Shown piece by piece: positions 14,110 to 19,317 of a stretch of 35,341 nt of DNA. The position numbers and the translations under genes are program-made. The stretch is from Chitinophaga pinensis (lineage in GTDB: Bacteria > Bacteroidota > Bacteroidia > UKL13-3). The stretch is taken from positions 1-35,341 of the forward strand of contig CAMAWM010000022.1 in assembly GCA_945861965.1 (NCBI GenBank), written 5' to 3'. A model generated the notes under the pieces. It had not been told where the DNA came from, made no database searches, and saw only the letters and a program-made list of their open reading frames with translations. Each line of letters starts with the position of its first letter. Within the stretch, counting starts at the first letter, position 1.

Positions 14110-15240
14110 TTATAGTTCTAACAATTTTTCGCAAAGATGATTCCAAGTAAATTTTTGTTTCTCTATTTTGATATTTTCAATAAAAAAATCTTCGCGATTA
14201 TTGGTATAAAAATCAAGAATGCTGTCTGCTATTTCTACTTTATTTTTGTTTGCAACGTATCCAACTTTATCGTGTGGAACTAATTCTGCCAATCCGCCAA
14301 CATTTGTTACCAGCATAGGTTTGTCGTAAAAATAGGCGATTTGCGTTACACCACTTTGTGTGGCATTCAAGTAAGTTTGAGCAACCAAATCACAAGCACT
14401 AAAATATTTTCCTACTTCGTTGTTTGGAATAAAGTCTGTCCTTAAAATAATTTCATTTTTCAGATTTAATTTTTCAATTAATTCAATGTAAGATTTTTTG
14501 TCTTCGTAAAATTCTCCTGCAATAATTAATTTTAGATTTAATTTTCTTAAACGTTCGTCCGCAAAACTTTCGAGCAACAATTTCAAACCTTTATACTTCC
14601 GAATGAATCCAAAAAACAAAATGTACTTGCAGTTTTCATCTAAATTTAAATGCTTTTTAGCCTCTGATTTTGCAATCGTTTCCCCAAACATGTCGTACAT
14701 TGGATGTGGCACATATTTTTTAGGTTTGCCAGCAACAAAATTTTCGATTTGGTCAAATACTTCGCGACTCATACTTAAAAAACCATCGCAACTGTTCAAA
14801 AAATATTTTGTTAAAGTCGTATCAAAAAACCTGCGTTCGTGAGGAATTACATTGTCTGTGATTGCAATTATTTTTGTTTTCTTATTTCTCTTTAATTGTC
14901 TTGCAATAGTTCCAAAAGCTGGAGCCATAAAACTTAGCCAATAACGAAAAATAACGAGATCGTAATTTTGTTTTGAAAATTTTCGTCCAAGCGAAAACCA
15001 ATTGAAAGGATTAATTGAATTGATTAAGGAATGAATTTTTATATCGTTTGGTTTTGAATCCGATGAAAATTGTGATTTACCTGGAAATAAAAATTCAGGA
15101 TATTGAAGTTTGAAACTTAAGATTTCGCATTCGAATCCCATTGAGATAAATTCTCGACAAAGTCGTTCATCATAAGTCGCCAAACCGCCACGCAGAGGAT
15201 GAGCTGGACCCACAATGAGTATTTTTTTCTTACTCGTCAA
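14110..15240 (-). CDS. Glycosyltransferase, GT4 family
   Basis: The 376-residue protein has a typical GT-B/GT4 layout. The N terminus is KKILIVGPAHPLRGGLATYD, whose GG loop binds the donor phosphate. The second domain opens with ILFFGFIRKYKGLKLLLESF, and the donor site follows as ATQSGVTQIAYFYDKP and VGGLAELV near residues 300-335. It probably adds a sugar to a lipid-linked or surface glycan at the cytoplasmic face. The start is TTG at 15240: no ATG is near, and the TTG overlaps the upstream GT2 gene's GAC GAG TAA end by 11 bases, so translation is probably coupled. It precedes the TonB-dependent receptor by 11 bases. Sugar and acceptor are unknown. Confidence 0.88.
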   Translation of the reverse strand: MTSKKKILIVGPAHPLRGGLATYDERLCREFISMGFECEILSFKLQYPEFLFPGKSQFSSDSKPNDIKIHSLINSINPFNWFSLGRKFSKQNYDLVIFRYWLSFMAPAFGTIARQLKRNKKTKIIAITDNVIPHERRFFDTTLTKYFLNSCDGFLSMSREVFDQIENFVAGKPKKYVPHPMYDMFGETIAKSEAKKHLNLDENCKYILFFGFIRKYKGLKLLLESFADERLRKLNLKLIIAGEFYEDKKSYIELIEKLNLKNEIILRTDFIPNNEVGKYFSACDLVAQTYLNATQSGVTQIAYFYDKPMLVTNVGGLAELVPHDKVGYVANKNKVEIADSILDFYTNNREDFFIENIKIEKQKFTWNHLCEKLLEL

Positions 15241-16195
15241 TTCCTAATTTTTTTGTAATTCCATAAGTGTTTCTTTCGCTTGCATTTCGCGAAATCATTT
15301 CGCCAATAAATCCAGCTAAAAATAATTGGACACCTATAATCGTAGCAACCAAAGCAATATAAAATAAAGGTTGGTCAGTAACATTTCTATTTAATGGCAG
15401 ATTGTTTATGATATGATAAACTTTAAATGAAATCAGATAACAGGTTACTAAAAATCCGCCTATAAAACTTATCAAACCCATTACGCCAAAAAAGTGCATT
15501 GGTTTTTTTGCAAATCGAGAAACAAAGAAAATGGTCAATAAATCTAAAAATCCGTTAAAAAATCGAGCCATTCCACCAAATTTCGTTTTGCCGTATTTTC
15601 TTTTGCGATGTTGAACTACTTTTTCACCAATCTTTTTGAAACCAGCCCATTTTGCGATAACCGGAATGTATCGGTGCATTTCGTTGTAAACCTCAATAGA
15701 TTTTACTACATCGCTTCGATAAGCCTTTAAACCGCAGTTAAAGTCGTGCAAAGGTATTTTTGAAATGCAGCGTGTTACGCCATTAAATATTTTTGTTGGA
15801 ATCGTTTTGCTTAATGGATCGTATCGTTTCTTTTTCCATCCACTTACTAAATCAAAACCATCTTCGGTAATCATTTTATACAATGCCGGAATTTCATCTG
15901 GATCATCTTGCATATCGGCATCCATTGTAATCACAACATCGCCTTTGCTTGCATGAAATGCAACATTCATTGCGGCAGATTTGCCGTAATTTCTTCTGAA
16001 TTTTATTGCTTTTATTGCGTTATTTTTTTGCTGAAGTTGTTCTACAATTTGCCAACTTGAATCGGTACTTCCATCATCAACTAAAATTATTTCATACGAA
16101 AAATTATTTTCATTCATCGTTCGTTCAATCCACGAAATCAATTCGGCCAATGATTCTTCTTCGTTTAGAAAAGGGATAACAACTGAAATTTGCAT
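15230..16195 (-). CDS. GT2 family polyprenyl-phosphate glycosyltransferase (ArnC/DPM1-like)
   Basis: The 321-residue GT-A enzyme starts MQISVVIPFLNEEESL, followed by VDDGSTDSSW near 41-50 and the metal-binding VITMDADMQDDPDEI near 88-102. HDFNCGLKAY near 150-159 is typical of enzymes that load a sugar onto undecaprenyl or dolichyl phosphate. Two C-terminal membrane segments (about 235-258 and 270-300) anchor it in the inner membrane, as in GtrB/ArnC-type proteins. It lies 21 bases after the DUF4199 gene and overlaps the next glycosyltransferase. This suggests a small glycan-modification operon: this enzyme charges the carrier lipid and another enzyme uses it. Which sugar is unknown. Confidence 0.9.
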   Translation of the reverse strand: MQISVVIPFLNEEESLAELISWIERTMNENNFSYEIILVDDGSTDSSWQIVEQLQQKNNAIKAIKFRRNYGKSAAMNVAFHASKGDVVITMDADMQDDPDEIPALYKMITEDGFDLVSGWKKKRYDPLSKTIPTKIFNGVTRCISKIPLHDFNCGLKAYRSDVVKSIEVYNEMHRYIPVIAKWAGFKKIGEKVVQHRKRKYGKTKFGGMARFFNGFLDLLTIFFVSRFAKKPMHFFGVMGLISFIGGFLVTCYLISFKVYHIINNLPLNRNVTDQPLFYIALVATIIGVQLFLAGFIGEMISRNASERNTYGITKKLGIDE

Positions 16196-16216
16196 AGTAA
16201 TTTAAGTCTATTTTTT

Positions 16217-16783
16217 TTAAGATGAAATTTGAGATTCTCTTTTAGTGAAAATACTAATGATCAAAACGAGAATAAATCCAAAAAGCATTGTTCCGAAAAT
16301 TGAATAAAAAGACATCGCTATAGGAGTCATAAAATTTTTCGATATTTCTAATGATTGATTCATTTCATCATCTGACATTCCGCGTTCAATCATACTTCTT
16401 TTAGCTTCTTGCATTGCAAATGCAGCTGTTTCGGAATCTAAATACGTCATGTAAAACCATGTCCAAATACCCATAATAATGGAAGCAAAAAGCAATACAA
16501 AAGATCCTGTTCCGACAGATTGTCCATAACTTAAATATCCGTTTAACTGCTCATCTCTTCTGCTTTTTAATGCGATAAATAATATTGCAATTGATGCTAT
16601 AAAAGAGGGTGGCGTTGTAATCCAAGCATTACTGTTTTCGGGCTTGTTCATGCCAAGTATATAAAAAAGTAAGACTAAGCAAATTTGAATTAAGGCATAG
16701 ATACAGCCAAACTTCAATGCCAATTGCCAGTGCTTGGATGTGTTTTCATTTTGCACTTCAGAATTTTTGAAATCGTTGTTCAT
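16217..16783 (-). CDS. DUF4199 domain-containing membrane protein
   Basis: DUF4199 proteins are small Bacteroidota membrane proteins of unknown function. This 188-residue example has four hydrophobic segments at about residues 24-44, 55-73, 91-114 and 150-180. The family features are there: a charged loop with YLSYGQSVGTGSF near 83-95, and a conserved Met/Glu-rich stretch EAKRSMIERGMSDDEMNQ near 126-143 between the last two membrane spans. It stands at the head of a unit with GT2, GT4 and TonB-dependent receptor genes; DUF4199-GT2 adjacency is common in the phylum. A candidate promoter lies just upstream. Confidence 0.85.
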   Translation of the reverse strand: MNNDFKNSEVQNENTSKHWQLALKFGCIYALIQICLVLLFYILGMNKPENSNAWITTPPSFIASIAILFIALKSRRDEQLNGYLSYGQSVGTGSFVLLFASIIMGIWTWFYMTYLDSETAAFAMQEAKRSMIERGMSDDEMNQSLEISKNFMTPIAMSFYSIFGTMLFGFILVLIISIFTKRESQISS

Positions 16784-16886: not shown

Positions 16887-17525
16887 TTATTTGTTAAAAG
16901 CAATTATTGAATTCAGTACTGAGAATTCAAACGAATTTAATTCGGTTTTTATTTCATTGGTGTTTGATTCTTCTGGATTTTGGAAAAACAAAACCATAGG
17001 AATAAAGAAGTCTTTAATTGGATTTTCTTCCGTTAAATTTTCTTTGATTAATTTAAGTTGATTGATTTCAATTTCATTCAAATCATTTTTGATAAAAGGC
17101 TCATAAATTTTGAATTCATCTTGGTTTTCGTCTGTATCAACAAATAAAAATTCATTTAAAAAATCTTCAATTGAAATTTCAACTTTGTGTTCTTTTGCTT
17201 CGGTTATATATAAAAATAAATTGAGTAGTTCAGTTCCACGGTCAATTGTTTTTTCTTCAATTTCTGCCCATTCTAACGATTCGAAATAATCTTCTTCTGT
17301 TTGATTTGTTGAAAGAAAATCAAACATCATCAAGTCAAACAGAATGTCATTTAATTCGTTGTATCCATTTGAATCTGTGATCTTATCCAACTCATCCGTT
17401 TTTTGCAAAAGGTCTAAATCAGATAAAAAAAGTTCTTCGCAATAGGAAGTTATACTCTTTAAATTGTTTTCTAAAGCAAATGTATTTAGTAAAGCATTTG
17501 CCGATTGTAAAGTATTGGATTGCAT
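16887..17525 (-). CDS. Acidic protein of unknown function
   Basis: I do not recognise this 212-residue protein. It is strongly acidic, rich in Glu, Asp, Asn and Leu, with no signal peptide, membrane segment or Cys pair; the only Cys lies near residue 28. Heptad-like Leu spacing suggests a largely helical cytosolic protein. It starts at an ATG 27 bases after the stop of another unknown gene (17553-17927), and the two are probably co-transcribed. It ends about 100 bases before the DUF4199 gene on the same strand. The acidity and pairing could fit a binding partner or inhibitor, but nothing in the sequence proves this. Confidence 0.65.
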   Translation of the reverse strand: MQSNTLQSANALLNTFALENNLKSITSYCEELFLSDLDLLQKTDELDKITDSNGYNELNDILFDLMMFDFLSTNQTEEDYFESLEWAEIEEKTIDRGTELLNLFLYITEAKEHKVEISIEDFLNEFLFVDTDENQDEFKIYEPFIKNDLNEIEINQLKLIKENLTEENPIKDFFIPMVLFFQNPEESNTNEIKTELNSFEFSVLNSIIAFNK

Positions 17526-18033: not shown

Positions 18034-19317
18034 TCAACTAGAAAAAGTGTGCAAAAGTCCTTTGTTCACTAACGCAATTGTCTTGCCTGTAAGTTGTTTG
18101 CCAAGTATTGGCGAGTTTTTCGACTTTGATAAATTATTTTTTTCATCGTATTGCCATTTCTTTTTCTCATCAAAAATCAACAATTCTGCTCGATTTCCTT
18201 TTTTGATGCTATTGTCTGGCAACTTGCAAATTTTTCTTGGATTTGCAGATAGCTTTTCAATCAGTAACTCAAGGTCGAAATTTTTTGGTTTGTATTCAAC
18301 TAAGAGTGAAAATGCAGTTTGTAACATAATCATTCCGTCTTCTGCATACTCAAATTCTACCTCTTTCAATTCAGGGTTCTGAGCGCAATGGTCAGTTACA
18401 ATACAATCAATAGTTCCATCAAAAAGTCCGTCCCACAATGCTTTCTTGTCGCTCATTGATCGCAATGGAGGCGATGTTTTAAAATTACTATCGTAAGTGC
18501 TTAAATCTTGGTCAGTAAAACACAAATTTGAAACAGCAACATCGCAACTGATTTGTTCATTATGTTTTTTAGCTTTACGAATTAAATCAACACTGCCTTT
18601 GCTACTCAAATGAGAAAAGTGGATTTTTGATTCAGCGTATTTGGCAATTTCAATGTCGCGTTGAATGATAATTTCTTCTGCAATGCTTGGAGTTCCTTTC
18701 AATCCCAATGAAGTACTCACTTTCCCTTCGTGCATTTTTCCGACAGAAAGTTCTTGATCTTCGGCATGAATCAATATTAACCCATCAAAAATTTTGTTAT
18801 ATAGTAAAGCTCGAAGCAAAAGGTTTGAATTTTTTATTGATTTATTCGCATCCGTAAAACCAATTGCGCCCGCTTTGTGCATATCAAACATTTCACTTAG
18901 CTCTTCGCCTTCCATCTTTTGACTAATTGTACCGTATGGATAGATATAAATTGGCGATTTTTTAGCTTTGCCAATTATATATTTCACTTCAGATTTACTG
19001 CTAACTGTAGGCAAGGTATTTGGAAGGCATGCAATTGCCGAAAATCCGCCTGCTGCTGCTGAGTTTGCTGCAGAATGAAGATCCTCTTTAAACTCAAATC
19101 CAGGATCTGAAATCTGCGCTCGCATGTCCATAAATGCAGGAGAGATTTTAGCTTCTTTTGCGTCAAAAAAAAGTATATTTTTATTTGAATTTGATGTCTT
19201 TTTCTTTGATATTTCAATGGATTCAATTAAATCTCCATTAATAATAATATCGCATGTCTTATTGTTGAAGGAGCTTTGTTTATCGCAAATCTTTGCGTTT
19301 GAGATTAATATTTTCAT
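18034..19317 (-). CDS. Dihydroorotase-like protein lacking the metal-binding HxH
   Basis: The 427-residue protein has the amidohydrolase fold of class I dihydroorotases, which close carbamoyl-aspartate to dihydroorotate. The usual DxHxHxREPG motif reads DMRAQISDPG (64-73), so both metal-binding His are replaced by Arg66 and Gln68. Other landmarks remain: LPNTLP (98-103), GFTD with Asp156, HAED (His184), HFSHLSSKG (His236) and TDHC with Asp309. This pattern matches the Bacteroidota paralog usually annotated pyrC, which resembles the inactive dihydroorotases that pair with aspartate carbamoyltransferase. It may be structural, or catalytic by another route. The start is the ATG at 19317, with a -33/-7 candidate just upstream. 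It is monocistronic as far as I can see, divergent from the AMP nucleosidase gene. Confidence 0.85.
   Translation of the reverse strand: MKILISNAKICDKQSSFNNKTCDIIINGDLIESIEISKKKTSNSNKNILFFDAKEAKISPAFMDMRAQISDPGFEFKEDLHSAANSAAAGGFSAIACLPNTLPTVSSKSEVKYIIGKAKKSPIYIYPYGTISQKMEGEELSEMFDMHKAGAIGFTDANKSIKNSNLLLRALLYNKIFDGLILIHAEDQELSVGKMHEGKVSTSLGLKGTPSIAEEIIIQRDIEIAKYAESKIHFSHLSSKGSVDLIRKAKKHNEQISCDVAVSNLCFTDQDLSTYDSNFKTSPPLRSMSDKKALWDGLFDGTIDCIVTDHCAQNPELKEVEFEYAEDGMIMLQTAFSLLVEYKPKNFDLELLIEKLSANPRKICKLPDNSIKKGNRAELLIFDEKKKWQYDEKNNLSKSKNSPILGKQLTGKTIALVNKGLLHTFSS

Follow-up and report, generated by a model that had tools for sequence, protein, structure and literature searches.

The protein PyrC', encoded at positions 18034 to 19317 of the window (the whole stretch of DNA that was analysed, 35,341 nucleotides), is probably a pseudo-dihydroorotase that serves as a scaffold of aspartate carbamoyltransferase (ATCase), similar to the class A2 arrangement of Pseudomonas, from a gene that stands apart from pyrB. 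The metal- and substrate-binding residues of PyrC' are lost in the window's genome and in the related bacteria examined. Judged from its residues, the protein is predicted to be without dihydroorotase activity, and it has probably been retained to support, structurally, the enzyme one step earlier in the pathway. The evidence comprises the residue losses and their distribution, a second PyrC, a PyrB without PyrI, the mutual exclusion of PyrC' and PyrI, and divergence of some PyrB proteins; from these we infer a physical PyrB-PyrC' complex and an effect of it on ATCase.

Sequence and predicted structure of PyrC'

The following positions were assigned by reading frame, profile search, model and alignment with the dihydroorotase of Aquifex aeolicus (3d6n):

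18034..19317, minus strand: pyrC', encoding a putative pseudo-dihydroorotase of 427 amino acids with the type-I fold
19120..19122, minus strand: codon of Arg66, where HxH has its first His (alpha-metal site); 29 of the 34 family proteins carry Arg here
19114..19116, minus strand: codon of Gln68, at the second His of HxH; variable in relatives
19108..19110, minus strand: codon of Ser70, at the Arg of HxHxR; Arg in 18 of 18 HxH proteins
18850..18852, minus strand: codon of the retained Asp156, equivalent to the zinc ligand Asp153 of Aquifex
18766..18768, minus strand: codon of the retained His184, equivalent to His180 of Aquifex at the beta site
18610..18612, minus strand: codon of the retained His236, equivalent to His232 of Aquifex at the beta site
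18391..18393, minus strand: codon of Asp309 (Aquifex Asp305), kept
18379..18381, minus strand: codon of Gln313, at the final DHAPH position, which is His in all 18 HxH proteins and Glu or Gln in all 17 proteins of the window's clade

The reading frame starts with ATG on the minus strand, and frame 1 of the plus strand over the same positions is full of stops. A profile search against TIGR00857 (pyrC_multi) gave 307.8 bits, above the cut-off of 279.05; a match to this model makes no demand of activity, and PyrC' genes match models named dihydroorotase. The best solved match was 3d6n, to which residues 2–420 were aligned nearly end to end (E 3.1e-75). In this alignment, the alpha-zinc motif His61-x-His63 of Aquifex is replaced by Arg66-x-Gln68, exactly as an earlier preliminary description of this DNA had stated, and the three positions that it regarded as kept (Asp156, His236 and Asp309) are joined by a fourth, His184. 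Two further substitutions, absent from the preliminary description, are Ser70 for the HxHxR Arg and Gln313 for the final DHAPH His; both replaced residues have a substrate-binding role.

The AlphaFold model, built from a 48-row alignment, had a mean pLDDT of 90.0 and a pTM of 0.91. Its top match in the PDB was 3d6n_A, the Aquifex dihydroorotase from the ATCase complex (TM-score 0.93); other type-I dihydroorotases followed closely (0.91–0.93), so the fold ranking alone is no proof of a complex. An error of sequencing or assembly was rejected because relatives share the loss of HxH, and a recent pseudogene was rejected with the open reading frame intact and conserved.

Distribution of the HxH loss

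In the alignment of homologues, HxH was kept in none of 96 proteins of the same class (34 from the window's own family and 62 others). All 18 homologues taken from the phylum's remaining classes, the best-scoring ones of a longer list and not an even sample, keep HxH, the Arg, both beta-site His residues, the Asp and the DHAPH His, and they form one group with a support of 100 in a tree built by a quick method with a midpoint root. Three class rows of the 131-row alignment had been set aside after their residues were seen: an HxH pyrC beside pyrB (G072), a genome with the QxH paralogue only (G012) and a diverged 95-bit match without HxH (G246). Within the family, 34 of 35 genomes were read; the remaining one (G213) and three genomes of the class (G095, G166, G250) lay outside the alignment. 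An alignment-based scan of contigs from named relatives (the best 80 of a longer list) found HxH absent in 79, the single exception being labelled Ignavibacteria (L265). The nearest relatives among these 80 were Bacteroidetes MAGs and Bacteroidetes bacterium UKL13-3, which the NCBI taxonomy places among unclassified Bacteroidota. Judged by named relatives such as Chitinophaga and Niabella, the window's class is probably Bacteroidia.

Pyrimidine genes elsewhere in the genome

The genome (G000; 2.10 Mb, 61 contigs) is 96% complete. A second pyrC was located on another contig:

L002:1486-2826 (contig C9): second PyrC, 446 amino acids, NF006688 member with 717 bits

Its match at C9:25923-27146 is 25% identical to PyrC', its NF006688 score compares with a cut-off of 535 bits, and its closest solved relative is 2GWN of P. 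gingivalis. Gln61-x-His63 with the following Arg, Lys147, His179, His237 and Asp311 were identified, a set that is complete apart from QxH; the Lys is presumably carboxylated. All 44 rows read for this type have QxH; they represent 41 distinct places (three places occur twice), and 2GWN carries the motif as well in the alignment. Since a table in the excerpted part of PMC12524618 lists 2GWN with zinc at both the alpha and the beta site, QxH is compatible with two zincs. By its sequence, this second PyrC probably carries out the dihydroorotase chemistry in this genome.

Several further copies were noted. Three of the 44 rows (L133 in G222, L135 in G049, L137 in G218) are extra QVH-type copies with the Lys shifted out of its alignment column, two of these genomes (G049 and G218) having an ordinary QxH PyrC besides the QVH-type paralogue. 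The second match of G246 (L128) reads HVH and lies outside the 44 QxH rows. One genome of family f83 (G393) combines a match to the window's protein at 2e-50 and a PyrB at 64% with no QxH PyrC match at E ≤ 1e-40.

A single pyrB was found, behind pyrR on contig C19, pyrC' being on C22. PyrI had no match in the genome (assembly 96% complete), and no class II PyrC scored over its cut-off there, a cut-off that only one of 14 controls passed. The genome thus has PyrB, no PyrI match and a separate second dihydroorotase, as in class A2; pyrC' does not lie beside pyrB.

The preliminary description had called for a search for pyrB and for a second pyrC with an intact HxH, and had supposed that, if no second pyrC existed, the enzyme would need another arrangement of its metal site. 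Both genes were found, although the second pyrC has QxH in place of HxH. With a second pyrC in the genome, an alternative catalytic metal site in PyrC' is not required; an inactive protein with a role beside PyrB, which had also been suggested, is the best-supported reading, and the need for an unusual metal site falls away. As a caution, neither dihydroorotase found in this genome carries the canonical HxH.

Relation of PyrC' to PyrI and PyrB

PyrI was matched in nine of 247 genomes of the class. A match to PyrC' at E ≤ 1e-40 was present in none of these nine and in 209 of the 238 PyrI-negative genomes (Fisher 2e-8, kinship ignored). The 209 were set by E-value only and include G072; 30 genomes had weaker matches and eight had none. 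The best matches of the nine PyrI genomes to the window's protein ranged from 1e-21 to 1e-32. Their PyrB proteins form one clade (100/100 support), so the exclusion may be a single event. On the other side of the branch that separates this clade stand all 17 PyrBs of PyrC' genomes in the tree, together with those of HxH genomes, whether pyrC is adjacent to pyrB or not; the PyrBs of PyrC' genomes show no special grouping with the pyrC-adjacent ones.

The PyrB of the window's genome was also compared with solved structures. It gave 205 bits against 2at2, the ATCase of B. subtilis, and 200 bits against the Aquifex class A1 subunit; this near-equality counts against the scaffold reading. The B. 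subtilis enzyme is described in an excerpt of PMC7053772 as a class C trimer without a partner. Classes A and C could not be told apart by this ranking, which was dropped for that purpose.

Divergence of PyrB was examined in six genomes of the class without PyrI or a clear PyrC'. Their PyrBs are 33–63% identical to that of the window's genome, against 63–80% in 24 PyrC' genomes hand-picked across families (p 2e-4); the second PyrC, at 56–61% in the six, shows no difference between the groups (p 0.67). The six come from families f4, f64, f96 (G384) and f53 (G313) and are not independent, as G012/G095 and G255/G321 are same-genus pairs. G095 was taken from the draw of the phylum and not from that of the class, and is absent from the three PyrI matches there. 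The match in G384 (5e-37) may be a diverged PyrC', and G255 and G321 each have three weak matches to the window's protein. When G384 and G313 were omitted, the remaining four PyrBs (45–62%) were still below all 24. PyrB has therefore diverged, and the second PyrC has not, in two clear lineages (f4, f64) and less surely in four. Inside f64, a genome with PyrC' (G291) has its PyrB at 74%. G313 itself, in contrast to another genome of f53 (G244), has a PyrB at 33% and lacks both a PyrI match and a clear PyrC'.

Some material was kept out of this comparison. Families f77 and f84, which lack PyrC' and have PyrB at 47–52%, initially looked like the strongest case for a coupled loss but were dropped: the second PyrC is at 34–39%, and with both enzymes equally diverged the two families are uninformative. 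Five genomes of low completeness (69–88%; G322, G347, G380, G415, G426) without a clear PyrC' were left out; the four with a PyrB have it at 71–84%, a level like that of PyrC' genomes, and their lack of PyrC' may therefore reflect gaps in the assemblies. Eight others (G281, G312, G344, G358, G432, G273, G375, G393) with matches to the window's protein of about 1e-44 to 1e-57 and PyrBs at 64–78% were likewise left out. With the second PyrC controlled for, the partial rank correlation between the similarities of PyrC' and of PyrB was weak (0.44, p 0.03), and the correlation of the two was rejected as evidence of coupling, being mostly shared descent.

Gaps of 14–180 bases between pyrC and pyrB were found in at least 29 genomes of other classes and in G072 of the window's class, and the adjacent pyrC had HxHxR in 15 of 15 loci checked. 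The arrangement is not universal: 11 of 18 stretches around HxH genes (1.5-kb flanks) were without pyrB. Around the window's gene and its relatives, 100 stretches (20 class genomes and the best 80 named relatives) were inspected, and pyrB was present in two (L078, L265), both with HxH. In the class, pyrC' was not found near pyrB, apart from the HxH case G072, which counts against a partnership with PyrB.

The half-kept metal site and the neighbouring genes

The invariant beta-site residues of the window's own clade are left unexplained by a pure scaffold and count against that reading. In this clade (17 proteins, 96% support), Arg66, Asp156, His184, His236, Asp309 and His310 are invariant in 17 of 17 (81 of 370 positions are invariant overall), and positions 68, 70, 100 and 313 vary; only the tree-defined clade is counted here, since an earlier "core" label had been set by His184 and His236 themselves. 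Such a pattern, with HxH lost and the beta-site positions kept, would suit a NagA-like enzyme in which Asp156, His184 and His236 hold a single beta-site metal, Asp309 acts as general base on another substrate and Arg66 occupies the alpha site. A precedent is E. coli NagA, which has QxN instead of HxH and one metal at the beta site (PMC3880350, in the excerpt available), and the neighbouring clade of seven proteins has exchanged Asp309 for Asn in all seven and lost His184 in seven and His236 in six. We nevertheless regard this enzyme as unlikely. Outside the family, His236 is missing from 61 of 62 class proteins and His184 from 48 (kept in 1 and 14, together in none), which means that the beta site cannot be required for whatever function the class has in common. 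Within the family the pair occurs in 20 of 34 proteins. The substrate-side positions vary inside the clade, and conservation of Asp156 and His310 is not special to it, as almost all of the class keeps them (outside the family Asp156 in 58 of 62, Asp309 in 36 of 62). In the Aquifex enzyme, as far as the same excerpt describes it, zinc is borne by the alpha site, the beta site holds water and the beta-site His pair can be replaced with little effect (PMC3880350). The zinc-bearing alpha site of Aquifex also bears on the idea that PyrC' has dihydroorotase activity through a metal centre of an unusual kind; in favour of it, the fold and part of the metal-site residues are kept. With both alpha-site His residues, the HxHxR Arg and the last His of DHAPH gone, positions 68, 70 and 100 variable among close relatives, and a second PyrC with otherwise complete residues at hand, such activity is highly improbable. 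A metal or structural role of the beta site is possible in the window's clade; it is not needed for the function that the family shares.

The genes downstream of pyrC' give the following context:

16887..17525, minus strand: open reading frame of 212 amino acids, downstream and two genes from pyrC', with no Pfam or NCBIfam match
14110..16783, minus strand: genes of a DUF4199 protein and of two glycosyltransferases (GT2, GT1), which in the class often lie close to pyrC'

Homologues of GT2 occur in 83 of the 100 stretches, of GT1 in 59, of the DUF4199 protein in 33 and of the 212-residue frame in 27; among 20 class stretches the 212-residue frame occurs in 14, GT2 in 10 and the DUF4199 protein in eight. 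Frequent glycosyltransferase neighbours could mean another role for PyrC', and the scarcity of pyrB in the same stretches agrees with a protein that serves the adjoining cluster in the envelope or in lipids and is unrelated to pyrimidines. Gene order alone is no proof of shared function, however, and none of these neighbours was found around the 18 HxH genes of other classes (1.5-kb flanks), an indication that the protein is older than the linkage. As the exclusion of PyrI and the divergence of PyrB point to PyrB, an envelope or lipid role is considered improbable.

Proposed origin and role

The scaffold reading, which we prefer, would start from an active type-I dihydroorotase, encoded by the kind of gene that in other classes is often beside pyrB, and assembled with PyrB as in the class A1 enzyme of Aquifex. 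Catalysis would then have been taken over by the QxH PyrC of the P. gingivalis type; in the window's class the alpha-metal site and the substrate-binding residues would have been lost and the gene would have come to stand apart from pyrB, the protein staying as a subunit. It is proposed that PyrC' was retained because it still binds PyrB. Its dimers would most likely link the catalytic trimers of PyrB into a dodecamer like that of class A2 (PyrB6-PyrC'6), which would stabilise or regulate ATCase with PyrC' in the place of the PyrI dimers of class B.

For the window's clade, a more speculative extension, itself improbable, is that PyrC' was rebuilt and not merely decayed: the invariant Arg66 would replace the alpha zinc and balance Asp156 and Asp309, and Asp156, His184 and His236 would bind a single metal or ligand at the beta site, through which the docking to PyrB is controlled, so that the dead metal site would be the sensor of an ATCase regulatory subunit functionally replacing PyrI.

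If the scaffold reading is true, the ATCase type with a pseudo-dihydroorotase, found in Pseudomonas and fungi, extends to the majority of the genomes sampled from one Bacteroidota class. The phylum would then offer a comparative case, with classes whose HxH pyrC is often beside pyrB and one class that keeps an inactive-looking subunit, and further with a PyrI clade that has a different PyrB in its place and PyrC'-less lineages with a diverged PyrB.

Comparison with known systems

Among the matches listed in the open-licence literature, no paper on a pseudo-dihydroorotase of Bacteroidota was found. The genome's other PyrC belongs to the P. gingivalis-type dihydroorotases (NF006688/PRK09236, 2GWN); it differs from PyrC' in subfamily and in its QxH, with the Lys and the remaining residues kept. 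In fungal CAD-like proteins (Ura2; Chaetomium 5nnl), a dihydroorotase fold without catalysis likewise stands beside ATCase (excerpts of PMC7053772 and PMC12524618), but the inactive domain is fused, whereas PyrC' is a separate protein. The class A1 dihydroorotase of Aquifex (3d6n, 4bjh) is the best match in sequence and fold and shares Asp153; its HxH and substrate residues, lost in PyrC', are present, and it is active within its ATCase complex (excerpt of PMC3880350). According to a portion of PMC7053772, the ATCase trimers of Aquifex are held by dihydroorotase dimers, in the place that regulatory dimers take in E. coli.

The closest parallel is the class A2 pDHO (PyrC') of Pseudomonas. PyrC' has the dihydroorotase fold with the zinc and substrate residues lost, as a class A2 pDHO has; its beta-site residues are kept. 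Pseudomonas has a second dihydroorotase, and its pyrC' gene lies beside pyrB. An inactive-type dihydroorotase homologue, a PyrB and another, probably catalytic dihydroorotase are common to both systems. According to PMC7053772, the inactive pDHO of P. aeruginosa is necessary for ATCase activity, and PyrB needs it to form active trimers. Other Bacteroidota keep HxH, so the loss seems to have occurred separately from that in Pseudomonas, of which the tree contained no sequence. The complex is known in Pseudomonas; here pyrC' stands beside glycosyltransferase genes, and a corresponding complex is predicted.
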